Shown: positions 11,582-33,240 of the stretch, piece by piece
Numbering within the stretch: the stretch's first letter is position 1
Layout of the letters: the number at the start of each line of letters is the position of its first letter
Origin: Xylanimonas ulmi
Lineage (GTDB): Bacteria > Actinomycetota > Actinomycetes > Actinomycetales > Cellulomonadaceae
Reading direction: 5' to 3'
NCBI RefSeq assembly: GCF_004216535.1
Contig: NZ_SGWX01000001.1
Span: 2,914,001 to 2,978,000, forward strand
Length of the DNA: 64,000 bases
The notes under the pieces: generated by a model
The model's input: the letters and a program-made list of their open reading frames with translations, nothing else
Databases searched by the model: none
Told to the model about the DNA's origin: nothing
Position numbers and translations under genes: made by a program

Positions 11582-13156
11582 TCGCCCCCGTGGGTCATCG
11601 CGGTCGACTGCTCCACGACCGCGGCCAAGGCCGTCGTCGTCGACGCCGCCGGGGCCGTGGTCGCCTCCGCCGCATCCCCGCTGACCACGTCGACGCCCGC
11701 CCCGGGCTTCCACGAGCAGGACGCGACCGCGTGGTTCGAGGCGACCGCCGCCGCGGTGCGCTCCGCGGTCGGCGCCCTGGGCGACGCCGACCGCGCGCGC
11801 ATCGGCGCCATGGCGGTCACCCACCAGCGCGAGTCGTTCGTGTTGCTCGACGACGACGGCGCCCCGCTGCGGCCCGCGATCCTGTGGGTCGACTCGCGGG
11901 CCGCCGAGCAGATCGCCCGGATCGGGTCGCGTCCGCTGCCCGACGGCCGCTCGGTGCACGAGGTCTCGGGCAAGCCGCCCGACACCACCCCCGCGATCTA
12001 CAAGCTCGCCTGGCTCGCCGAGCATGAGCCCGGCGTCGTCGCGCGCGCCGCCCACCTCGCCGACGTGCAGGCCTACCTGGCGCTGCGCCTGGCGGGGCGG
12101 CTGGCCACGAGCCACGCGTCGGCCGACACGCTCGGCCTGTTCGACCTCGCCCACCTCACCTGGTCCCCCGCCCTGCTGTCCGCGGCCGGTCTGCGCGCGG
12201 ACGAGCGTCCCGCAATGTCGGCCAACGCGGCGGTTTCAACGACTTTGCGGGACGCTCGTCCGCGCGCCGGACTCGGGCTGCCCGAGTTGGTGGCCGCGGG
12301 GGAGGTCATCGCGGACCTGCGGCCCGACGTCGCCGCGGCCCTCGGACTGCCCCGGCCCGTGCCGCTGGTCGCGGGGATCGGGGACGGCCAGTCGGCCGGG
12401 ATCGCCCTCGGCGTCGCCGAGCCGGGCGTCGCGTACCTCAACCTGGGCACCTCGATGGTGTGCGGCGTCGAGGTCGCCGAGTACCGCACCAGCCCGGCGT
12501 ACCGGACGCTCGCCGGCACGCGACCGGGCACGTTCGTCCTGGAGACGGTGCTCAACGCGGCCGCGTACGTGGCCGACTGGGTCACCACCTTCGCCGGCCT
12601 CGACCACCAGACGCTCACGGCCCGTGCGACGGCGATCGCCCCCGGCGCCGAGGGCCTGCTGGTCCTGCCCTACTGGAACGCCGCGCAGACGCCGCACTGG
12701 GACCCGCTCGCGCGCGGCGCCGTCGTCGGCTGGCACGGGCGGCACACCACCGCGCACCTGTACCGGGCGGTGCTGGAGGGCGTCGCGTTCGAGCTGCGGC
12801 TCCAGCTCGACCTGCTGGAGCGGGACACGGGCGCGCGCGTGGGTGAGCTGCGGGCGGTCGGCGGTGGGGCGCGCTCGCCGCTGTGGGCGCAGGTCGTCGC
12901 CGACGTCACGGGCCGCACGGTGCGCGTGTGCGCGGACGGCGAGGTGAGCGCCGCGGGGGCGGCGATCCAGGCGCAGGCCCGGTTGAGGACCGGCGCAGTG
13001 ACGGGCGCCAGCCGCTTCGTCACCGAGGGCCGCGACGTCACGCCCGACGCCGACGCCCGGGCCGCCTACGATCCCCTCTTCGCGGCCTACCGCACCCTCT
13101 ACCCCGCCCTGCGCGCCACCTTCGCCCTCGCCGCGCCGACCGCCCCCTCCGCATAG
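11528..13156 (+). CDS. xylB: FGGY-family sugar kinase, xylulokinase-like
   Basis: ATP-dependent sugar kinase, up to 542 aa. The FGGY N-terminal domain begins AVDCSTTAAKAVVVD (phosphate-binding loop) with THQRESFVLLD and ILWVDSRA. The catalytic Asp is in VAGIGDGQSAGIALG. The C-terminal domain has VGGGARSPLWAQVVADVTGRTV, typical of xylulokinases. The start is uncertain: GTG 11528 lies in a palindromic repeat, and GTG 11558 would give a shorter N-terminus still containing one VET motif. A segment at about residues 222-247 is encoded by a perfect 23-bp inverted repeat with its loop and looks like an in-frame insertion between two conserved xylulokinase blocks. Active-site motifs are intact. Confidence 0.88.
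   Translation: MVEPVETTHPVPDPVETTSPPWVIAVDCSTTAAKAVVVDAAGAVVASAASPLTTSTPAPGFHEQDATAWFEATAAAVRSAVGALGDADRARIGAMAVTHQRESFVLLDDDGAPLRPAILWVDSRAAEQIARIGSRPLPDGRSVHEVSGKPPDTTPAIYKLAWLAEHEPGVVARAAHLADVQAYLALRLAGRLATSHASADTLGLFDLAHLTWSPALLSAAGLRADERPAMSANAAVSTTLRDARPRAGLGLPELVAAGEVIADLRPDVAAALGLPRPVPLVAGIGDGQSAGIALGVAEPGVAYLNLGTSMVCGVEVAEYRTSPAYRTLAGTRPGTFVLETVLNAAAYVADWVTTFAGLDHQTLTARATAIAPGAEGLLVLPYWNAAQTPHWDPLARGAVVGWHGRHTTAHLYRAVLEGVAFELRLQLDLLERDTGARVGELRAVGGGARSPLWAQVVADVTGRTVRVCADGEVSAAGAAIQAQARLRTGAVTGASRFVTEGRDVTPDADARAAYDPLFAAYRTLYPALRATFALAAPTAPSA
12193..12267. repeat. In-frame palindromic insertion within the kinase gene
   Basis: Arms 12193-12215 and 12245-12267 are perfect 23-bp reverse complements around a 29-base loop. 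The arm begins GCGCGCGGACGAGCGTCC. The element encodes about 25 residues (from RADERPAM to DARPRA) not expected in the family. Confidence 0.85.
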
Positions 13157-21429: not shown

Positions 21430-23117
21430 CAGCCCCCCACCTCCGCGGTCTTGGCCTCGGAGCCGAGGTCGGCCGACTCGCCGACGCCCCGCTCGCCGCC
21501 TCCGGGGAACACGGCCTCGATGTAGCCCCGCGTGCCGACCAGAGTGCTGGCGGCCCGCTGCGCGTACCCGTACACGGGCCCCGCGAACACCGTGAGCGCG
21601 AGGCCGAACGCCACCAGCGCCGCCGTGGGCGCCACCATGCCACGCGGCAGTCGCGTCTCCTCGCGCACGGTCGGCTCCAGGTCCTCGGGCGCCGTCTGCC
21701 AGAACGCCTTGTTCCACGCCTTGACCAGCGCGTACAGCGTCAGCAGCGAGGTCACGACCGACCCGACCACGAGCGTCCACGCCAGCGGCGTGCCGCTGCG
21801 CACACCCGCCTCCAACAGGCCCACCTTGCCCAGGAACCCGGACAGGGGCGGGATGCCCGCGAGGTTCATCGCGGGGATGAAGAACAGGACCGCCAGCCCC
21901 GGCGCGACGCGCGCGAGACCGCCGAGCCGGTCGAGCGACGTCGTGCCTCCGCGCCGCTCGACCAGGCCCACCACGAGGAACAGCGTGGTCTGCACGGTGA
22001 TGTGGTGCACGACGTAGAAGATCGCCGCGGCCGTCCCGGCCGTCCCGGCGATCGAGACGCCGAAGATCATGAACCCGATGTGGCTGACCAGGGTGAATGA
22101 CAGCAGACGTTTGATGTCGTCCTGCGCGACGGCGCCGAGGATGCCCACGAGCATCGTCAGCAGCGCGAGCACCATGAGCACCTGGTCCACGCGCACGGAG
22201 CCCGCGCCCGACGCCGGGAACAGCAGCGTCTGGGTGCGGATGATCGCGTAGACGCCCACCTTGGTCAGCAAGCCCGCGAACACCGCCGTGACGGGCGCGG
22301 GCGCCGTCGGGTAGGAGTCCGGCAGCCACGCCGACAGCGGGAAGATCGCGGCCTTGATGCCGAACCCGAGCAGCAGCAGGAGTTGGATGCCCAGGCGCAC
22401 GGCCGGGTCGACGTCGGGCAGCCGCTCGGCGACCTGCGCGAGGTTGACCGTGCCCGTGGCCGCGTAGACCAGCCCGACCGCGGTGAGGAACACGATCGAG
22501 CTGAGCAGCGCGACGACGACGTACACGCTGCCGACCCGGATCCGGTCCCCCGTGCCGCCGAGCGTGAGCAGCACGTAGGAGGCCGCGAGCAGCACCTCGA
22601 ACCCGACGTAGAGGTTGAACAGGTCGCCCGCGAGGAACGCGCCGCCCACGCCCGCGGCGAGCACCAGGAACGTCGGGTGGTAGATCGCGACGGGCAGCAG
22701 GTCGCGGCGGTCGGCTTCGTCGGGGTCGCCGCTGCCGCCGTCGGCGGCGCGCGGCTCGCCGGGCACGCCCTCACCCACCATGTCGACGTCGTCGCTGCCG
22801 TCGGCGACGCCCTGGGCCATCGAGTACAGCAGCACGCACAGCAGGACGACGCCGCTGACCAGCAGCATGAGCGCGGCGAGCCGGTCGGCGACCAGGTTGA
22901 TGCCCACGGGCACGGCCCAGTCGCCGATGACGGCGACGACGGGGCCGGAGTCGGCCGCCACGACGAGCACGGCCGCCGTGACGACGACGACGCTGAGTGC
23001 GACGACCGAGATGACGCGCTGGACGCGCGCGTAACGGTGCAGCGCGAGCGTGAGCCCGGCCGCGAGCAGCGGGACGAGCGCCGGCAGCGGCAGCAGCGAG
23101 GCCGCGGACCATGTCAC
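21429..23117 (-). CDS. mnhD: Mrp-type Na+/H+ antiporter subunit D (proton-conducting, NuoM/N-like)
   Basis: Antiporter-like membrane subunit homologous to complex I NuoM/NuoN, 562 aa, about 14 helices. Conserved elements include the helix-5 Glu in NLYVGFEVLLAASYVLL, the Lys-containing GFGIKAAIFPLSAWLPDSYPTAPAPVTAVFAGLLTKVGVYA block, and SFTLVSHIGFMIFG. An acidic 35-residue loop (about 103-140, VADGSDDVDMVGEG onward) is inserted after the third helix, longer than in typical MnhD. It starts at GTG 23117, which overlaps the mnhC stop as GTGA. Confidence 0.94.
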   Translation of the reverse strand: MTWSAASLLPLPALVPLLAAGLTLALHRYARVQRVISVVALSVVVVTAAVLVVAADSGPVVAVIGDWAVPVGINLVADRLAALMLLVSGVVLLCVLLYSMAQGVADGSDDVDMVGEGVPGEPRAADGGSGDPDEADRRDLLPVAIYHPTFLVLAAGVGGAFLAGDLFNLYVGFEVLLAASYVLLTLGGTGDRIRVGSVYVVVALLSSIVFLTAVGLVYAATGTVNLAQVAERLPDVDPAVRLGIQLLLLLGFGIKAAIFPLSAWLPDSYPTAPAPVTAVFAGLLTKVGVYAIIRTQTLLFPASGAGSVRVDQVLMVLALLTMLVGILGAVAQDDIKRLLSFTLVSHIGFMIFGVSIAGTAGTAAAIFYVVHHITVQTTLFLVVGLVERRGGTTSLDRLGGLARVAPGLAVLFFIPAMNLAGIPPLSGFLGKVGLLEAGVRSGTPLAWTLVVGSVVTSLLTLYALVKAWNKAFWQTAPEDLEPTVREETRLPRGMVAPTAALVAFGLALTVFAGPVYGYAQRAASTLVGTRGYIEAVFPGGGERGVGESADLGSEAKTAEVGG

Positions 23118-23683
23118 GGGCGCTCACCCCCGCGCGAGCCGGGCGCGTCGTCGGCAGGGCCGTCGGGCGGGCCGTCGGCAGACCCGCCGGGCGCCTCGCC
23201 GGCCGCCGTCAGGCTCTCCTCGATGTCGTCGTGGATCTCGGCCGCCTCCTCGTCGAGCGTCTCACCGGTCTCGGCCGCGTCGACGTCGGCGTACGCCGCC
23301 TCGTTGCGCGCGGCACGGCGGGCGATGCGGCGGTCCTCGTCGTCGTCCTGGACCTCGTCGTGGCCGTTGAGCTGCCAGGACCGATACGCCATGGCCAGCA
23401 CGAACGCGGTCAGCGCGAGCGTGATGACGATCGAGGTCAGCACCATGGCCTGGGCGAGCGGGTCGCTGAGCCGCACGGCGGGGTCGGCGTTGCCCACGAT
23501 GGGCGCGGCGCCCGCGCGCCCGCCCGCGATGAGCAGCGCGAGGTTCGCGCCGTTGCCCACCAGCACGAACCCGAGCAGCACGCGCGTCAGCGAGCGTTCG
23601 AGCAGCAGGTAGACGCCGACGGCGAACAGCACGCCGACCGCCACGACCAGCGCGGCCGAGGGGACGTTGTCGAGCACGATCAT
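23114..23683 (-). CDS. mnhC: Mrp-type Na+/H+ antiporter subunit C (NuoK-like), with acidic tail
   Basis: Small membrane subunit homologous to NuoK, 189 aa. The first 110 residues hold three helices with family motifs GVYLLLERSLTRVLLGFVLVGNGANLALL and DPLAQAMVLTSIVITLALTAF. Residues about 112-189 form a strongly acidic tail (DDDEDRRIARR, DEEAAEIHDDIEESL), unlike the short end of most MnhC proteins. It lies 7 bp after the large mnhAB gene. Confidence 0.93.
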   Translation of the reverse strand: MIVLDNVPSAALVVAVGVLFAVGVYLLLERSLTRVLLGFVLVGNGANLALLIAGGRAGAAPIVGNADPAVRLSDPLAQAMVLTSIVITLALTAFVLAMAYRSWQLNGHDEVQDDDEDRRIARRAARNEAAYADVDAAETGETLDEEAAEIHDDIEESLTAAGEAPGGSADGPPDGPADDAPGSRGGERP

Positions 23684-23690
23684 CCGGCCC

Positions 23691-26600
23691 TCACCGCCCC
23701 CACACCGCGCCGCGGCCTGCGGCCCCGGCGCCGCCCTCGATCTCGCCCTGGTGGTCGATCTCGGCGCCGAGGGAGCGCAGGATGTCGAGCACCAGGCCGA
23801 TGACGACCAGGAACACCCCCAGGTCGAAGACCAGCGACGTCACCACGTGCACCGACCCGAAGACCGGCAGGTGCAGGTCCACGATGAAGCTCTCCAGCGC
23901 GTGCTGCCCGGCCAGCAGGGTCACGAGCCCGACGCCGGCCGACAGCACCAGGCCCGTGCCCAGCACGCGGCCGGGGTGCACGGGCGCGGCCTCGCCCAAC
24001 TCGTACCGCCCGCCGGCGAGGTAGCGCACGGCCAGGGCCAGGCCCACCACGAGCCCCGCGGCGAACCCGCCGCCGGGCGCGTTGTGCCCTCGGAACAGCA
24101 GGAACAGGGCGAAGACGATCATGGCGTGGAAGACGACGCGCGTGACCACCTCGAACATGATGGAGCGCCGCTCCGGGGCCAGGGTGGGGCCCGCGACGAT
24201 CCACGTGGTCGAGCGCGCGATGGGCGCCGTGCCCGACGCCGTGCCCGACGCCGTGCCCGACGCCGTGCGCGGGCGCAGCGCGCGCGCGTCGTCGCGCAGG
24301 CGTGGCACGCGGCCCGAGCGCTGGCGCAGGAACACGAGCGAGGCCACGCCGGTCGCGGCGACCAGCAGGACCGAGATCTCGCCCACGGTGTCCCAGGCGC
24401 GCACGTCGACCAGGGTCACGTTGACGACATTGCGCCCCCCGCCCCAGGTGACCGCCTCGGACGGGAAGTCGACCGAGATGGGCAGGTGCGTGCGGGCCAG
24501 GGGCGCGGCGGTGACCAGCAGCATCATCACGAGCCCGACCCCCACCCCGATCGCGAGCCGCACCCAGCGGCTCGCGGCCAGCGGCCGGTTGGAGAAGTAT
24601 CCGGGCAGCCGCCGCAGCACCAGCACCATGACCACGAGCGTCACGGTCTCGGTCAGCACCTGGGTCAGCGCGAGGTCCGGCGCCCCATGCAGCAGGAACA
24701 GCACGGCGTTGCCGTACCCGGTGACCCCGACGAGGAACACGGCCTTGAGACGGCGTCGGGCGCGGGCGGCGAGCACCGCCGCCGCGGCGATGACCGCCAC
24801 GACGACGAGTTGCACGGGTCGGTCAAAAGGCACCAGGGTCAGCGGCCCGAGCGTGAACGCGTCGGCTCGCCCGACGGCGTCCTGCGTGCCGGGCAGCGTG
24901 GCCCCGCGCAGCCCCCAGGCGAGCGCGACGCCGGGGCCCGCGATGAGGACCAGCAGGATCACGCCGAGGTAGAACGGCAGCGAGCCGCGCTGGGTCTGGC
25001 CGGTGACGTCGGCGGCGAAGTCGTCGAGGCGGCGCATCGTGCGCCGGTAGACGAGGTCGGCGCCCAGCGGGGACCACAGCCGCTCTTGCAGGCGCTCGAT
25101 CCGCTCGCGCTGCCAGAACGCGGCCGCCCCGAGCGCGAGCACCCCGAGGGTCACGAAGACCGTCGGCGTCAGGCCCGCCCACAGCGTCAGGTGCCCCGGC
25201 TCGCCCGTCGGGTAGGTGTCCGCGTGCGGCGCCAACAGGCGGTCGCCGACCTGTGGCGCCAGCGCGACCACGAGGCCCAGCACCGCGAGCACAAACGGCG
25301 GCGCGGCCAGCAGCAGCGGGGGGCGGCGCACCACACCCGAGGCGGGCGGCGCCACGATCGAGCCCGCGGCGGGCGTCGCGGCGGCCGGGCTCGCGGCGGC
25401 CGGGCTCGCGGCGGCCGGGCTCGCCGTCGTCGCCGCCGGCGTCATCCCGCCCTCGACCGAGATCGTCCCCAGGGACACGGGCTCGACCATCTGCACCACG
25501 GGCGTCACCTTCGCGCGGCGCCCGAACGCGCCCCAGGCGAACCGCAGCCCGTAGGCGACGGTCAGCGCCGAGCCGAGCGCGACGACGACGGTCAGGACCT
25601 TGCCGAGCGGGTCGTCGCCGTGCGCCCACGCCTCGAGCGCGGCCTCCTTGGCCACGTACCCGGCGAACGGCGGCAGGCCGATCATCGACGCCGTCGCGAG
25701 GATGCCCGCGGCGGCCGTGAGCGGCAGCTGGCGTGCGAGCCCGGCCAGTCGCCGCAGGTCGCGCGTGCCGGTCGCGGCGTCGACCACGCCGACCACGAGG
25801 AACAGGGACGCCTTGAACATCGCGTGCGCCCCGAGCAGGGCGAGCCCGGCCAGCGCTGCGCCGCGCGTGCCGTAGCCCAGCAGCAGCACGAGCAGGCCGA
25901 GCTGCGACACCGTGCCGAAGGCGAGCACGAGTTTGAGGTCGTGCTGACGCAGGGCGCGGTATCCGCCCAGCAGCAGCGTCGCCGAGCCGACGACCACCAC
26001 CACCCACCGCCAGGCGGCCAGGCCTGAGAACGCGGGCGCGAACCGCCCCACCAGGTAGATGCCCGCCTTGACCATCGCGGCCGCGTGCAGGTACGCCGAC
26101 ACCGGCGTGGGGGCGGCCATCGCCGCCGGCAGCCAGAAGTGCGCCGGCACCTGTGCGGACTTGGTCATGGCCCCGGCCAGCAGGCACAGCGCGGCCACGA
26201 CGGCGGGCGCCCCGGTGGGCGGGTCGGCCAGCACCTCGGACACGCGCCACGTGTCGGCCGCGACCCCCAGCACGACGATCCCGACCAGCATCGTCAGGCC
26301 GCCCGCGGTCGTGACGACGATCGCCTGCATGGCCGCGCGCCGCGAGGCCTTGCGCTCCGCGTGATGGCCGATCAGCAGGTAGGAGAAGACCGTCGTCAGC
26401 TCCCAGAACACGAACATGAGCAGCAGGTCGTCCGCGGTGACCAGACCGGCCATGGCGCCCGCGAACGCGACCAGCACGCCCGCGAACTTGGACATGCCGA
26501 CCGCGCCGCGCGCGAAGTACGCGCTGCAGTACAGCAGCACGAGCGCCCCCACGGCGCCCACCACGAGCAGCATGAGCCACGACAGGGTGTCGAGCCGGAA

Positions 26601-26807
26601 GTCGAGCGCGAGGCCGAGGGAGGGCACCCACTCCAGGCGTTCGGTCGGGCCGTCGCCGCGGACCACCGCCCCGGTCTGCGACAGCGCGTACCCGGCGGCC
26701 GCGGCGGGACCGCTGGCCAGCACCCAGAAGGCCCTGCGCCCGAGCCACGCGACGAGTGCGGACGCGGCCAGAGCCAGCAGCAGATGGACGCAGACGATGA
26801 TCAGCAC
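23691..26807 (-). CDS. mnhA: Mrp-type Na+/H+ antiporter subunit A/B fusion
   Basis: Largest antiporter subunit, 1038 aa. Residues about 1-500 are a NuoL-like module with the conserved Glu in [21 protein letters not shown], the Lys/His region [39 protein letters not shown] and [19 protein letters not shown] variable Ala/Pro-rich stretch with a 15-bp tandem DNA repeat follows (about 460-480), then the MnhA C-terminal and MbhE/MbhD-like regions (about 600-840). The last 170 residues are an MnhB domain ([18 protein letters not shown]). The A/B fusion explains why no separate mnhB is present. It starts at GTG 26807. The complex exports Na+ in exchange for H+. Confidence 0.94.
   Translation of the reverse strand: [1038 protein letters not shown]
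24229..24267. repeat. 12-bp tandem repeat in mnhAB
   Basis: GTGCCCGACGCC occurs three times in a row plus a partial fourth copy, encoding a GTAS repeat in the linker before the MnhB domain. It is a candidate for slippage variation in linker length. Confidence 0.8.
25381..25425. repeat. 15-bp tandem repeat in mnhAB
   Basis: GCGGCCGGGCTCGCG occurs three times (last copy with one change), encoding SPAAA repeats in a hydrophilic loop after the NuoL-like module. Confidence 0.8.
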
Positions 26808-26813
26808 GGGCGC

Positions 26814-27947
26814 CTACAGGTCGTCCGGGTCGACAAGGAAGTCCGACTCGTCGGCGATCTCGCCTCCCGCGGCGTCCCAGAGCGCGCGGGCCACACGCGC
26901 GACGAGCTCGGCGGCGCGCTTGCGCGCGACCAGGTGGCTGTGCGGCGGGCGCTCGCGGTTGGCCTCGATGAGGTCCGGTGGGTCCCAGTGCACGCGGTAG
27001 GAGACGCAGCCGCCGCGCGTCCAGGGCAGATCGCGCAGCAGGGGCGGGACGGTCTCGGCGCCGATGACCTCGACCGCGAGGTAGCCGTCGTGCCCGAGGT
27101 CGACGACGACGCCGAACCCGTCGAGCACGTGCGGCTCCTGGAGCGCGGCGATGTCCCAGTCGTCGGCCGCGGCGTGCAGACGCCGACGCTCCTGCGGGTC
27201 CATGGTGTCGCCCGGGTACAGCGGCAGCTCCGCGATGCCGGGCGGCGGGCCTTGGTACGGCGCGCCCTCGGTCGCGAGCACCGCGCGCGGGTGCACGCTC
27301 TGGATCACGCGGTGGCACGCCTGCGGGTCGAGCCACACGTCGGAGTAGAGCGTCAGGTCGACGGCCGAGGCCGGGTCGGGGGTCAGGACGACGCCGGCGC
27401 CGACACGCGCCGCGGCGGCCGGGGCCGGGTCGTCCCACATGCCGGCGACGTCGAGCCGCACCGCCCCGCCGAGGCGGCGGCAGGCGGCGATCAGCCATGT
27501 GATGACGCGGTCCTCCTCGCGGTTGGGCACGCCCGCGGGGAACGCCCGCGCGATCCCGTCCTTGTCGCCGCCCTCGGCCGGGGGCGGGTCGGGCCACCGC
27601 TCGCGCGGGCACACGACGTCGAACACCATCGCGGTCCCGGAGGGCAGACCGGCGTCGAAGCCGCGGCCGGCGGGGGCATAGGGGCCGGTCAGGGTCGTGT
27701 GCCGACTCACGCGCAGCACCCCGGGCTCGCCTGGTCCGGCCATGCGCCCCATGGGCACGTCGGCGCCGGGAAGGTCGCGTGGCACGACCTCCCACCGGGT
27801 GGTCGCGAACCGTGACAGGGCCAGCACCTCGACCTCGTCGACCTCGACATCGGCGGGGAGCGCGAGCAGGTGGCGGGCCTCGTGGCCGCGTGTCACGGTG
27901 CGGGGGAGGGCGGGGTAGGCCGCGGTGTCACCGGCGGTCTGGCCCAT
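26814..27947 (-). CDS. Uncharacterized protein, paralog of the gene at 30930-31958
   Basis: Cytoplasmic protein of 377 aa without signal peptide or membrane segment; I do not recognise a characterised family. The core (about 100-290) shares an ordered set of motifs with the gene at 30930-31958: GVLR then TLTGP, DGIARAFPAGVPNREEDRVITWLIAACRRLGGAV, TPDPASAVDLTLYSDVWLDP, and a C-terminal HLVARKRAAELVARVARAL. The ATG at 27947 follows a GGAGC ribosome-binding site and leaves out an Arg-rich upstream extension. It ends 6 bp before mnhAB, so it may be first in the antiporter transcript. Confidence 0.75.
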   Translation of the reverse strand: MGQTAGDTAAYPALPRTVTRGHEARHLLALPADVEVDEVEVLALSRFATTRWEVVPRDLPGADVPMGRMAGPGEPGVLRVSRHTTLTGPYAPAGRGFDAGLPSGTAMVFDVVCPRERWPDPPPAEGGDKDGIARAFPAGVPNREEDRVITWLIAACRRLGGAVRLDVAGMWDDPAPAAAARVGAGVVLTPDPASAVDLTLYSDVWLDPQACHRVIQSVHPRAVLATEGAPYQGPPPGIAELPLYPGDTMDPQERRRLHAAADDWDIAALQEPHVLDGFGVVVDLGHDGYLAVEVIGAETVPPLLRDLPWTRGGCVSYRVHWDPPDLIEANRERPPHSHLVARKRAAELVARVARALWDAAGGEIADESDFLVDPDDL

Positions 27948-28092
27948 GCGTCGCAGCTCCTTCCGTGAGGGCAGGGGCGCAAAACGTTGTCTCGCGCCTT
28001 CGTGGCGCGACCGAGCGTAGCGGCGCCTGGGCGTTTGCCCTCCCTCGCTGCGCACAGGAGGCTGAGTGCTCACCCCGCTCCCTCCCTCGGGC

Positions 28093-28791: not shown

Positions 28792-28865
28792 GCGGGTGTA
28801 GTTCAATGGTAGAACTTCAGCTTCCCAAGCTGACAGCGCGGGTTCGATTCCCGTCACCCGCTCCA
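28792..28865 (+). tRNA. tRNA-Gly, anticodon CCC
   Basis: Cloverleaf of 74 nt with encoded CCA. The acceptor stem GCGGGTG pairs with CACCCGC. The D-arm contains TTCAATGGTAGAA. The anticodon stem TCAGC/GCTGA encloses loop TTCCCAA, so the anticodon is CCC and it reads GGG. The T-arm contains GGTTCGATTCC. A strong terminator hairpin begins 9 bases after the CCA. Confidence 0.97.
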
Positions 28866-28873
28866 GCGCCTCA

Positions 28874-28898
28874 GGGCCCGGCCGTCATGGCCGGGCCC
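28874..28898. terminator. Terminator between tRNA-Gly and the pirin gene
   Basis: GGGCCCGGCC, loop GTCAT, GGCCGGGCCC, then TT: a perfect 10-bp GC stem just after the tRNA. It overlaps the last codons of the convergent pirin gene and can serve both directions. Confidence 0.8.
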
Positions 28899-29931
28899 TT
28901 GTGCGTGGGCGCAGGCGCACATCAGGCATGGTCGGCGCCCGCAGCGGGCCGCCGTCGTACCCGCGCACCTGCCCGAAGCGCCGCGACGGCGCCCCCGCGG
29001 TGTACTGGGTGGCCACCCCGGCGGCGTCGGCGGGGTCGTCGGCGACCTGGGCCATCCACTCGTCGCGCGCCCGCGCGACGTCGTCGTGCGAGCGGCCGAC
29101 GAAGTTCCACCACATGACGATGTCCTCGCCGAACGGAACTCCACCCAGCAGCACCGCACGTGCGGGACTCGGCCCCGCCTCGATGACGAGGCGCCGCTGG
29201 CCCGGGCCGACGTAGCCGAGCTGGTCGCGCGGCACGGCCATGCCCTGCAGCCGCACCTGGCCCGCGTCGGTGAGCACGGCGTGCTCGAAGTCCGGGTCGG
29301 CGTCGAGCGTGAGGCGCGCGCCCGGGGCGAGGTCGACCTGCGCGCCGACGAGCGGGGTGTACGCGGTGGCGGGTGAGGCCAGGCGGGCGCCGCCCACGGT
29401 GAGCGCGCCGAGGAACACCTGCACCCGCGCGCCGTCCGCCTGCGCGACGGGCAGGTCCGCGTGGTGCTCGAAGTGCGGCGCGGCGCCGAGCGCCGACGCG
29501 GGCAGCGCCGTCCACAGCTGCACGCCGTGCAGCACCGGTGGGCGGCCGGCCTGGGGCGACTCCTCGGAGTGCGAGATGCCGACGCCGGCCGTCATGAGGT
29601 TGAGCTCGCCGGGACGCACCGCCACGAGCGACCCGACCGAGTCGCGGTGCAGGATCTCGCCCTCGAACAGCCATGTCACGGTCTGCAGGCCCGTGTGGGG
29701 GTGGGGCGCCACCTGCATGCCGGCGGACTGCGAGACGTCGTCGGGTCCGAAGTGGTCGCAGAAGCACCACGCCCCGACCAACGACCGCGCGCGCTGCGGG
29801 ATGGTGCGGCGCACCGTCATCGAGCGCGTGCCGCCCAGCGGCACCTGCCGCGCGGTGAGCAACTCGACGCCGTCGCCCGACACCCCCGCCACACAGACCT
29901 GTTCCTCGGGGCGCGCGTCGAGGTTGCTCAT
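28885..29931 (-). CDS. Pirin-family protein
   Basis: Bicupin of 348 aa. The N-terminal pirin domain has the metal site APHPHTGLQTVTWLFEGEILHRDSVGS with the usual His residues, followed by PGELNLMTAGVGISHSE (second His/Glu pair). The C-terminal pirin_C domain contains LGGVPFGEDIVMWWNFVGRSHDDVARARDEW. Bacterial pirins act as quercetinases or regulators of central enzymes; the substrate here is unknown. The gene faces away from the large intergenic DnaA-box region. Confidence 0.93.
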   Translation of the reverse strand: MSNLDARPEEQVCVAGVSGDGVELLTARQVPLGGTRSMTVRRTIPQRARSLVGAWCFCDHFGPDDVSQSAGMQVAPHPHTGLQTVTWLFEGEILHRDSVGSLVAVRPGELNLMTAGVGISHSEESPQAGRPPVLHGVQLWTALPASALGAAPHFEHHADLPVAQADGARVQVFLGALTVGGARLASPATAYTPLVGAQVDLAPGARLTLDADPDFEHAVLTDAGQVRLQGMAVPRDQLGYVGPGQRRLVIEAGPSPARAVLLGGVPFGEDIVMWWNFVGRSHDDVARARDEWMAQVADDPADAAGVATQYTAGAPSRRFGQVRGYDGGPLRAPTMPDVRLRPRTRARP

Positions 29932-30018
29932 GACACGACACTATCGACGTGGGGCCGGACGCGGGATCTGGCGGCGGGCCCCCCTGCGGTGGACGCGGTG
30001 GCGCCCGGCCGGGCATGG

Positions 30019-30051
30019 CCGAGGCCCCCCGGGAACGCCGGGGGGCCTCGG
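30019..30051. terminator. Strong GC hairpin upstream of the pirin gene
   Basis: A perfect 14-bp stem (30019-30032 with 30038-30051) and a GAACG loop. It lies about 90 bases upstream of the pirin start, in DNA with no convincing gene, so it may end an unrecognised transcript or insulate the following region. There is no T-run. Confidence 0.5.
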
Positions 30052-30408
30052 AGTCCTCCGCGGACCCTGGCCAGGGGTGGACACCGATCGCCAGGGGCGC
30101 CGCGCGTCGACGACGCGGCTCCGGCGGCCGTCGGGCAGAGGGCCGGTCCTCGCGAGGGACCCCCCGACCCGTTCACCACGGCCCTCCGGACGCGGGTGGT
30201 CTTCCGGCCCCGCTCGGACACCTGCGTCGTCACCCGCAGCCCGCACCGCGGTACGGGATGGTCCGTCGTTCTCCGGTTGACCGTGTCTCTGGGCGACGGC
30301 AAGCCCCGCCGAATCGGGTGGGGTGGACCGTCGCCATGGAGACCAGTAGCCACGATTCAAGCCCCCTGACCGCGGCCGTGCAAGGGGGCCGGGCGCGGTC
30401 TGTGACCC

Positions 30409-30494
30409 TGTGGATAGTCCCACAACGTCGTCCACAGGCTATGCCGCGGAATCCCCACACCGTCCACAGCCCTGGGGACAAAAGATGTGGACGC
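30409..30494. other. DnaA-box-like cluster, left half
   Basis: Five 9-mers resemble the DnaA box TTATCCACA/TTGTCCACA: 30409 TGTGGATAG, 30428 TCGTCCACA, 30460 CCGTCCACA, 30473 TGGGGACAA and 30486 TGTGGACGC. Three have one mismatch and two have two. They lie in the 998-bp gap 29932-30929, in which I find no gene. The DNA between the two half-clusters is GC-rich, with no AT-rich unwinding element. Confidence 0.6.
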
Positions 30495-30800
30495 CGGGTG
30501 AACGAAGAGCGTCCGACGACGGCGCCCGTCGCGTCGCGGGGCCACCCCGAGGCGGGTCCACCGGCGCCGCGACGGCCGCGGAGCGCGACGACGGACGAGT
30601 GTCGCCTTTGCGGCAGTCGGAGAGCGGATCTCGGATCTTGTGGTACGCGAACCGCATGATCACGCGGCGAAAGCGGCCACGAAGCGCCCGCGCGGCGCTC
30701 GCCGCGCCCGCCCGGGTTCCCGCCCCTCGAACGCCCTCCCGCCGGCGCCGCGCCCCTGACGCGCCCCCATCGCGCCCTCACGGCGCACGCCGGTGTGCTA

Positions 30801-30889
30801 TGTGGACGCCCGGTGGATAACAGTTTGCGCAGGTGAGTCCCGCTGTCGGCGCCTATCCACACAACCCTGTGGACACAGCCTGTGGATAC
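30801..30889. other. DnaA-box-like cluster, right half
   Basis: Five more sites: 30801 TGTGGACGC, 30812 GGTGGATAA, 30853 CTATCCACA, 30868 TGTGGACAC and 30881 TGTGGATAC. Four have one mismatch to the consensus. The last three are packed in 37 bases, in both orientations. About 300 bp separate this from the left half. Confidence 0.62.
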
Positions 30890-30929
30890 TCGCCGGACCC
30901 GTCCACCGCCGCCCGCGCGTGGCCTGGCC

Positions 30930-31958
30930 TCAGACCCAGGCGCGCGCCTGGTGGTGGCGCCCCTCGACGCGCGCGGCCAGTTCGGCGCCCGTCGCGACGA
31001 ACCCGCCGTCGTCGACCAGGACGCCCGCGATGCGCGCCTGCAGCGCCGTCGCCAGCCGCGCCACGATGGTGGACATCCGTCCGCGGGCGATCAGGTGCAG
31101 CCCCGAGGGGTGCTCGGTCCGCAGTTCGTCGGGGTCCTGCGGGATCCATGACAGGTGGTAGGCGAACGGGCCGTACGCCCGCCACTCAAGCACCCCCAGG
31201 GCGCGCGGCACGCGGTCGACGTGCGCGACGCGCACCCGCAGGTCGCCGTCGTAGGAGGTGCGCGCGCGGATGGCGTAGGAGAGCGAGCCGTCGGCGCTCG
31301 TCGCGCGCTCCTCGGGCTCGGCGGTCGCGACCAGGCCGCGCACCTGGCCGAGCAGGTCGGCGGGATCGAGCGCGTGGGCCGAGTACAGCGACAGGTCGAC
31401 CGCGGCGCCCGGGTCTGGGGCGAGCGGCGTGCGGCCGTCGACCAGCACCGCCCCGCCGAGCTTGCGGGCCACCGCGACGGCCCACCGCACCACGCGCAGC
31501 TCCTCGCCCTCGGGCAGGCCCGCGGCGAAGGCCCGGCTCAGGCCGTCACGGTCGTCGTACGTCGCCGGCCGCTGCGTGCGCTCGGCGCGGACCGGGTCGA
31601 CGGGCGCGATGGTCCATGCGCGAAAGCCGTGCTGCGCGGCGCGCGCGCCCAGCGCCGCGGCGCGGTCGGCGTCGACGGGGAACGGTCCCGTCAGCGTGTG
31701 CCGCTCCCCCAACCGCAGCACACCGGGCTCAGGGTCAGGGTCGACGTCAGGCGTCGCGCCCCGGAACCGCGCGCCGCGCGGGCGCGGCGCCGGCGGACCG
31801 GACGGCTCGCGCAGCCAGGCGGCGTCCGAGAACCACGCCGCGGCGAGGCCGGGCATCGCGGCGTGCGGGGCCTGCGCCGTGGAGTCTGCGAGATCGGGGA
31901 CGACGAGCGTGTGGTCGGCCGCGCGCTCGGGTGGCGCGGCGGCCTCGGGCTGTGGCAT
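30930..31958 (-). CDS. Uncharacterized protein, paralog of the gene at 26814-27947
   Basis: Cytoplasmic protein of 342 aa, no signal or membrane segment, function unknown. It shares with the 26814-27947 protein the order GVLRLGERHTLTGP, DGLSRAFAAGLPEGEELRVVRWAVAVARKLGGAV, APDPGAAVDLSLYSAHALDP and HLIARGRMSTIVARLATAL. It adds WRAYGPFAYHLSWIPQDPDEL, whose counterpart in the paralog is the VHWDPPDL region. The ATG at 31958 is preferred over a start 21 bases upstream, because the proline-rich N-terminus is not conserved. Its stop lies about 40 bp from the right DnaA-box cluster. Confidence 0.75.
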   Translation of the reverse strand: MPQPEAAAPPERAADHTLVVPDLADSTAQAPHAAMPGLAAAWFSDAAWLREPSGPPAPRPRGARFRGATPDVDPDPEPGVLRLGERHTLTGPFPVDADRAAALGARAAQHGFRAWTIAPVDPVRAERTQRPATYDDRDGLSRAFAAGLPEGEELRVVRWAVAVARKLGGAVLVDGRTPLAPDPGAAVDLSLYSAHALDPADLLGQVRGLVATAEPEERATSADGSLSYAIRARTSYDGDLRVRVAHVDRVPRALGVLEWRAYGPFAYHLSWIPQDPDELRTEHPSGLHLIARGRMSTIVARLATALQARIAGVLVDDGGFVATGAELAARVEGRHHQARAWV

Positions 31959-32018
31959 GCGGGGAACGGTAGCGCCCACGCCGACGGCGCGGAACCTCTC
32001 CCCGCCGCAGCGGGCGCC

Positions 32019-32637: not shown

Positions 32638-33240
32638 ATGCCCAAGATCATCGGGAAGAGCCTGCACGAACACCGCCAGATGACCCGGCAACGGCTCTTC
32701 ACCGCACTCTCGACGCTCATGGCCGAGCGCGGGTTCGACACCATCACGCTCGCCGACATCGCCGCGACGGCCGGGGTGGGACGCACCGCGGTGTACAACC
32801 ACTTCCCGGACAAGGAGGCGCTGCTGCTGGGCTTCATCACCCACGAGACCGAGGAGTACGCCCGCCGCCTCGAGCGCGCGCTCGACGGCGTCGACGAGCC
32901 GGTCGAGCAGCTGCGCACCTACATCCGCCAGCAGGCCCAGCTCTCGCGCATGTTCCACCTGGCCCCCGGGCCCGACCTGCGCACCGTGCTGTCGCGGCCG
33001 ACGCTGCAGCGGCTGCGTGAGCACGCCGAGATCGTCGAGTCGATCCTGCGCCGCATCCTCACCGAGGGGATCCGCACGGGAGAGTTCCCCGACCAGGACA
33101 TCGACCCGACCGTGCAACTCGTCAACGCCTGCCTGTCGGGCCGGCTGATCCCCGAGGAGCCGGTCGCGCGCGAGCGCGCCGTGCGCGCCGCCGAACGGTT
33201 CGTGCTGCGTGCGGTGGGCGCCCGCGAGGCCGCGGCCTGA
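32638..33240 (+). CDS. TetR-family transcriptional regulator
   Basis: 200 aa. The N-terminal TetR helix-turn-helix (about 14-60) reads TRQRLFTALSTLMAERGFDTITLADIAATAGVGRTAVYNHFPDKEALL, a textbook match. The C-terminal all-helical ligand domain has no recognisable ligand signature. The only neighbour close enough to share its operator is the divergent DinB-fold gene. It ends 3 bp from the convergent AraC gene. Confidence 0.93.
   Translation: MPKIIGKSLHEHRQMTRQRLFTALSTLMAERGFDTITLADIAATAGVGRTAVYNHFPDKEALLLGFITHETEEYARRLERALDGVDEPVEQLRTYIRQQAQLSRMFHLAPGPDLRTVLSRPTLQRLREHAEIVESILRRILTEGIRTGEFPDQDIDPTVQLVNACLSGRLIPEEPVARERAVRAAERFVLRAVGAREAAA

Follow-up and report, generated by a model that had tools for sequence, protein, structure and literature searches.

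A conserved, mostly origin-near array of DnaA-box-like sites in a non-coding region of Xylanimonas ulmi and related actinobacteria

The DNA analyzed here, referred to as the window, is a stretch of 64 kb (G000:C1:2914001-2978000) within a single contig of 3,965,098 bases. The earlier note had described a gene-free region of about 1 kb in it, and such a region was found at 29932-30929 between the flanking open reading frames. On its left is the gene of a pirin family protein (28885..29931, minus strand; Pfam PF02678/PF05726), and on its right is a gene without a Pfam match (30930..31979, minus strand); both genes lie outside the element described below. The product of the latter is related to the protein encoded at 26814-28073, and the two are paralogues without Pfam matches, each of which matches the other's place in relatives. 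The 30930-31979 gene has been lost in two genomes of one genus. The sites that are the subject of this study had been placed next to tRNA-Gly and dcd, an adjacency that has to be withdrawn, as the pirin gene separates them from both dcd and the tRNA-Gly gene (28792-28865).

Re-scanning of 30409-30889 found ten sites within two mismatches of TTRTCCACA, seven with one mismatch and three with two, in agreement with the number given previously, and likewise returned two groups about 300 bp apart with boxes in both orientations. The ten DnaA-like boxes start at 30409, 30428, 30460, 30473, 30486, 30801, 30812, 30853, 30868, and 30881, and none of them is a perfect TTRTCCACA box (0/10). Sites with at most one mismatch number eight in the whole 64-kb window, and seven of the eight are inside 30409-30889; no 481-bp stretch exceeded two of them when the window was dinucleotide-shuffled 200 times. 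In the whole genome such sites number 363, compared with 304 matches to the reversed control word, and given the former count, the probability of seven sites in 481 bp is ~6e-14 per stretch, or ~5e-10 after multiplying by the number of stretches. Density across the genome was judged from two full scans for TCCACA cores facing one another or in tandem within 30 bp. Groups of at least three cores were confined to the window groups, the surroundings of dnaA, and 3161629-3161658, with isolated pairs otherwise. The earlier note had considered that equally dense clusters might occur at many loci; none did in the scans made, and only the dnaA region matches the window in density, the densest 481 bp within 20 kb around oriC also having seven sites with at most one mismatch. 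The third place, G000:C1:3161629-3161658, is a small DnaA-box group in which three TCCACA cores follow one another in tandem at 12-bp intervals; it lies ~54 kb upstream of dnaA.

The left group, or cluster 1, contains the core element (30421..30494, plus strand), in which five CCACA sites in the order + + + - - are held in a nearly fixed register. This is seen both in alignment A1, of 15 genomes, and in alignment A2, of 48 sequences from five families (f1, f3, f9, f13, and f17). The first site, S1 (30420..30424, +), is a half-site, CCACA, whose C30421 is identical in 48/48 rows and whose next three letters are kept in 41-45. It is followed by S2, the DnaA box TCGTCCACA (30428..30436, +), which reads TCCACA from 30431 and has a CAC at 30433-30435 that is identical in 48/48 rows. 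S3, the box CCGTCCACA (30460..30468, +), is the first box of a + - - unit, and its CACA at 30465-30468 is also identical in all 48 rows. The unit continues with S4, TTGTCCCCA (30473..30481, -), 13 bp after S3 on the opposite strand and reading TGTGnA from 30473, and with S5, GCGTCCACA (30486..30494, -), a further 13 bp on, on the same strand as S4 and reading TGTGGA from 30486. An A-tract occurs between S4 and S5 (30480..30485); it is AAAAGA here and mostly AAAATC in relatives, with each A of 30481-30483 kept in 38-43 of the 48 rows. Left of the core is a further DnaA-like box, CTATCCACA (30409..30417, -), whose register is not fixed among relatives.

Conservation in relatives, on which the earlier note had made its proposal depend, was strong for the left group. 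Every one of the 16 invariant columns in A2 falls within the five sites, 12 of them in S3-S4-S5. When the 15 loci were anchored on the left group, mean pairwise identity reached 0.61-0.80 across 30420-30499 (four bins of 20 bp), compared with 0.28-0.40 for every other bin between -300 and +700, a gapless measure to which conserved parts shifted by indels, such as cluster 2, are invisible. The S2-S3 distance differs by one or two bases among rows, and the remaining core spacings are constant in nearly all rows; the exceptions in A2 are G129, one base shorter between S1 and S2, and G380 of f17, which is without a clear S1. The pairing of S3 with S4 as an inverted repeat raised the idea that the boxes represent a hairpin, CCACAGCCCTGTGG, of a transcribed structured RNA or terminator. 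This is exceedingly improbable and was disfavored, as no compensatory change was found at the eight pairs of the possible hairpin in 15 sequences, 181 of 500 shuffles pair as well, and Rfam at the gathering score gives matches to tRNA only. The absence of compensatory change makes the core pattern look like the signature of a DNA-protein interaction.

Two variations on the core were noted. In f35 loci L187-L191, L194, L195, and L198, the S2-S3 spacer has a word peculiar to the clade, CTGAGCG (or GCTCAG when the opposite strand is read), which is possibly a site for another protein. Several f13 genomes have a second array of cluster-1 type ~235-270 bp downstream of the first (~235-260 bp in L156, L157, and L158), so that a doubling of the element recurs outside the window's family.

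The spacer between the two groups (30495..30800) was unconserved by both BLAST and the identity bins. Beyond it are two weaker boxes on the minus strand (30801..30820), a second GCGTCCACA at 30801 and TTATCCACC at 30812; the GGTGGA at the place of the latter is kept only in the close relatives L057 and L059. Cluster 2 (30853..30889, plus strand) is a second three-box unit, + - -, with starts at 30853, 30868, and 30881 (0/+15/+28), and it is common to part of the family. The unit is present without mismatch in eight of the 15 A1 loci, the window included, and in nine when one mismatch is allowed. Upstream of it is the word GCAGGT (30829..30834, +), a possible accessory site, found 23-26 bp before the first cluster-2 box in 7 of 8 loci with a perfect cluster-2 unit. 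Several sequences of f13 and f1 have its complement, ACCTGC, between S2 and S3.

The range of the element was followed with searches of increasing reach. BLAST of 30380-30920 gave some match in 34 of 59 genomes, of which only matches spanning the left group were counted (14 of 58 relatives); among the matches listed, the right group was matched in four genomes (G008, G010, G027, and G033). The remaining matches, mostly to the GC-rich middle and the query ends, were discarded as likely chance. Model R1, trained on 15 family genomes, matched 147 of 150 family genomes at E<=0.01 (100 at E<=1e-9 by a hand count in which not each match was checked against oriC) and 109 of 297 order genomes at E<=1e-4. 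Model R2, trained on 48 sequences of f1, f3, f9, f13, and f17, matched 99 of the 297 order genomes at E<=1e-6 (82 at E<=1e-9, hand count), with 198 having no match at that threshold, and 89 of 394 class genomes at E<=1e-4, with 305 having none. Matches of either model weaker than ~1e-8 were distrusted because they include oriC (e.g., G023:C1:11643, where dnaA is at 11942). In the class sample, 31 genomes had a best R2 E-value of 8.1e-9 or better, and after a gap came 58 at 6e-7 or weaker, which were set aside. The strong R2 matches outside the order (E<=1e-8) were in 24 genomes, 17 of f35 and seven of f47, both families absent from the training rows. Compared with a 25-letter site pattern, 23 f35/f47 loci had zero mismatches in 16 cases, one in six, and two in one, a fit that is not independent of the model by which these loci were picked; in the shuffled control for the pattern, a value of 7 stands for more than 6.

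These data indicate that the element recurs within the window's family and is also present in four further families of the same order and, beyond the order, in f35 and f47. In its own genome it was the sole match of its model at E<=1e-4. A contig scan with a strict pattern returned 17 stretches, from Isoptericola, Cellulosimicrobium, Xylanimonas, Paraoerskovia, Sediminihabitans, Antribacter, and a Demequinaceae MAG, all of the window's wider family, which we take to be Cellulomonadaceae broadly defined and which these matches place near Isoptericola, Cellulosimicrobium, and Xylanimonas. No copy was found in viral contigs scanned with the exact pattern.

The core is ~490-560 bp upstream of the pirin start, and one reading of the locus would be a DnaA-regulated promoter of a neighbor, whether pirin, the 30930-31979 gene, or a TetR-type regulator at 32638-33240. 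A TetR-type gene related to that of the window was the most persistent neighbor in a further sample of 40 stretches of 10 kb (19 of f1, eight of f13, three of f3, and five each of f9 and f17), being present in 13 of the 19 f1 stretches, five of the eight of f13, and one of the three of f3, and directly beside the core in two f1 loci, L062 and L145. Pirin and DinB genes were each found in 13 of the f1 stretches, and DinB in two of those of f13. Against a promoter, the core is kept in relatives that lack its supposed targets: among 14 of these, pirin was not found in the fetched stretch of three and the 30930-31979 gene was lost in three (in G005 and G004, the search for the right-hand gene finds the paralogue only). 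A search for eight window genes, the TetR-type gene among them, found none in the five f9 and five f17 stretches, and neither these eight nor dnaA or dnaN were found within 1.5 kb in the 23 f35/f47 loci. The adjacent genes, in one locus scanned for each family, are unrelated: FtsX-like, GNAT, and pentapeptide proteins in f35; GGDEF-EAL, DUF4190, and CtaG/CopD proteins in f9; and nucleotidyltransferases and glycosyltransferases in f17. Since the neighbors vary between families, no one target gene explains the element. We regard the promoter reading as very unlikely; a common target gene would have been expected to go with the element, and no such association was found, the TetR-type gene being absent from the f9, f17, f35, and f47 stretches.

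Other ties to the neighborhood are loose. A tRNA-Gly(ccc) gene is a recurrent left neighbor, found in the stretches of nine of the 14 relatives at 1.6-5.4 kb, in six of 19 f1 stretches, and in two of five of f9; its recurrence on that side is the mark of a common ancestral place. The eight f13, five f17, and three f3 stretches, like the f35/f47 stretches checked, gave no tRNA-Gly, and tRNA-Ala was found in all five of f17. Of four f47 stretches, one (G590) has genes from the left flank of the window (21507-26741, which we read as an operon for an Mrp-type antiporter) at 1.4 kb from the element, which again suggests a shared ancestral place. Parts of the neighborhood thus persist within groups of families, and no gene goes with the element throughout.

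On the chromosome, dnaA is at G000:C1:3215532-3216839, and the boxes of the oriC region form groups at 3215228-3215280 upstream of dnaA, at 3216903-3217078 in the dnaA-dnaN gap, which has seven boxes with at most one mismatch, and at 3221491-3221531 beyond dnaN. At this last place the boxes form a dense + - - - group (3221481-3221528), which is ~4.6 kb past dnaA and so not in the dnaA-dnaN gap that is usual for them. At 271 kb (6.8%) upstream of dnaA, the window sites are not oriC. A second or displaced replication origin was considered in view of a box density equal to that of oriC. That is highly improbable: the canonical dnaA-dnaN gap with its boxes exists, neither dnaA nor dnaN was found at any of the 147 element loci checked, and the element has no AT-rich unwinding stretch, its highest A+T per 50 bp being 0.42 versus 0.54 in the dnaA-dnaN gap. 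The prior statement that the locus has neither dnaA-dnaN nor an AT-rich unwinding region was accordingly borne out.

The element usually lies on the chromosome's origin side. Across 31 mostly complete genomes its distance from dnaA was 2.3-20.6%, with a median of 8.8%, on either side, and its orientation relative to the replication fork was identical in 29 of the 31, the exceptions being G171 and G287; the distance table takes in weaker matches, e.g., that of G287 (E 3.6e-8). G325 was left out of an initial 32 genomes, its dnaA contig not being a whole chromosome; there, the element precedes dnaA by 436 kb and shares its strand. Nine f35 genomes were queried and eight have the element and dnaA on one contig. 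Six of these eight resemble the window, with the element on the strand of dnaA and 217-316 kb upstream of it; G564 and G500 also have it on that strand, at 228 and 169 kb downstream, in the opposite fork orientation to the rest. In G048 (f13) the element shares the strand of dnaA and precedes it by 308 kb, and in G251 (f17) the two are 1.39 Mb apart; in G548 and G052 they are on separate contigs. As symmetric inversions keep distance and orientation for every gene, a constant orientation is weak evidence alone. Origin proximity may be plain synteny, which together with such inversions accounts for part of the pattern, so that position supports selection and does not prove it.

The mostly origin-near place, the mostly uniform fork orientation, and an array with an A-tract would also suit an architectural site, at which DnaA or a nucleoid protein would serve chromosome folding or segregation. 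We consider this quite unlikely, given that the sites are DnaA boxes like those of oriC and that no DnaA-dependent folding site was met in the portions of the literature covered for other questions.

Overall, we favor, with moderate confidence and from sequence comparison, the interpretation that the element is an origin-proximal, non-coding DnaA-binding control locus that acts in trans on initiation, most likely as a sink or inactivator of DnaA. We infer DnaA binding, action in trans, and a negative sign, and the element probably helps control the timing of chromosome copying. The earlier note had proposed a DnaA-titrating or regulatory locus outside oriC, and this stands as the best reading in view of density and conservation, with a likeness to E. 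coli datA that is weaker than was assumed. We hypothesize that DnaA would load cooperatively on the five-site array and that the locus, copied soon after oriC fires, would then be present in doubled dose. The doubled dose would remove free or ATP-bound DnaA, either by holding it or by favoring hydrolysis as datA does, and the next initiation would be delayed; the second three-box unit at 30853-30889 would add capacity. A sink or inactivator is favored because there are Gram-positive precedents of that kind, because an origin-near position matters in Bacillus subtilis, and because the relative place is that of datA, as far as the published accounts available describe them. Several observations count against a sink, namely that the + - - units are closer to DARS than to datA, that no box is a perfect match to the consensus, that tandem gaps are 4 bp, that proximity to the origin is possibly plain synteny, that G251, G564, G500, G171, and G287 are exceptions in place or orientation, and that 198 of the order genomes and 305 of the class genomes gave no R2 match at the thresholds used.

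The main rival to a sink is a reactivating site resembling the DARS of E. coli, on which ADP-DnaA would assemble at a + - - unit, release ADP, be recharged with ATP, and stimulate initiation. Both window units are three-box units with one box facing two, with starts at 0/+13/+26 in cluster 1 and 0/+15/+28 in cluster 2, and the cores of E. coli DARS1 and DARS2 as we measured them are 0/+14/+26 with the same orientations. A review gives that arrangement as well, with box I opposite to boxes II and III and equal spacing in both DARS (PMC5742627, in the part available), and the total span of 26 bp is that of cluster 1. These orientations and the nearly shared spacing make reactivation a serious rival, and S3-S4-S5 carry most of the invariant A2 columns (12/16). 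We nevertheless consider it unlikely. The start-to-start spacing of DARS (14/12) is close to those of the window (13/13 and 15/13) and unequal to them; + - - is one of few possible orders and occurs at the genome's own oriC (3215248/3215260/3215272); and cluster 1 differs in having two extra forward sites before the three-box core and an actinobacterial host. According to the excerpt seen of PMC4245941, E. coli DARS2 depends on IHF and Fis, and conservation of its core is described for the gamma-proteobacterial relatives of E. coli. The element is origin-near, as is datA, whereas DARS2 and DARS1 are copied later: the times after initiation given in the accessible part of PMC5835720 are 8 min for datA, 16 min for DARS2, and 26 min for DARS1. 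The tandem gap of S4-S5, like that in cluster 2, is 4 bp, and pairs at this genome's oriC mostly have 3 bp; E. coli DnaA is described as preferring gaps of 2-3 bp, and one base added between paired boxes strongly cut binding at one site (PMC11317965, in part). A layout resembling DARS is thus combined with a gap that differs from oriC, and the layout does not decide function. A bolder version, which we think unlikely, is that the element is an ancestral, non-coding DnaA nucleotide-exchange site of Actinomycetes, a DARS-like reactivator whose evolution was separate from that of E. coli DARS and whose five sites form a code of their own, CCACA-TCCACA-CACA-TGTG-TGTGGA. Opposite outcomes are expected from a sink and from a reactivator.

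DnaA-tuning sites outside oriC are well worked out in E. coli, and for Actinomycetes we know of no better answer on the DnaA-ATP/ADP balance than there is for B. subtilis. In B. subtilis datA, DARS1, DARS2, Hda, SeqA, and IHF are absent and whether DnaA-ATP and DnaA-ADP are balanced by anything is unknown, as stated in the portion available of a 2026 review (PMC13220808). A 74-bp non-coding element with a near-invariant register, present in at least two orders, mostly origin-near and with most of its neighbors changing, is a concrete candidate. If the nucleotide-exchange reading were true, the DnaA-ATP/ADP balance would be set by a DNA element outside Proteobacteria, of which no example was met in the parts of the literature covered.

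Among known systems, datA is, like the element, a non-coding DnaA-box cluster outside oriC and near the origin, the window boxes being recognized by their letters. It is at 94.7 min and oriC at 84.6 min, a distance of ~10% of the chromosome (PMC5742627, part of the text), compared to 6.8% in the window and the relatives' median of 8.8%. The essential boxes of datA share one direction and have an IHF site between them, according to the same portion of that review, and this differs from the window orders + + + - - and + - -. datA adjoins tRNA-Gly(GCC) genes; the tRNA-Gly(ccc) of the window is 1.6 kb off with pirin between. The parallel with datA that had been drawn holds, then, for an origin-near non-coding cluster, and the tRNA-Gly likeness is weak and the layout nearer to DARS. 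No description of this element was recognized in the literature searched, which covered the original work on the Streptomyces and B. subtilis clusters through later citations.

The actinobacterial intergenic site Rv0010c-Rv0011c of mycobacteria is a DnaA-bound cluster outside oriC, with a two-box palindrome, identified by pulldown and ChIP-seq, for which its authors saw no obvious correspondence in other species (PMC7738170, the part seen). The DnaA-box clusters of Streptomyces coelicolor (Smulczyk-Krawczyszyn 2006, as cited) are also actinobacterial and outside oriC; they are said to repress untimely initiation (PMC5742627, available part). The oriC-proximal clusters of B. subtilis (Okumura 2012, as cited) offer a Gram-positive likeness by description, in that they lie near the origin, titrate DnaA, and depend on position (PMC5010248 and PMC13220808, both in part). 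A cluster was less effective in titration once moved to the terminus (PMC5010248), and deletion of six clusters led to early initiation (PMC13220808), as reported in those portions; there are six clusters in B. subtilis versus one main element here. Like such titrating clusters, the window array has densely spaced boxes, lies outside oriC, and is proximal to the origin.
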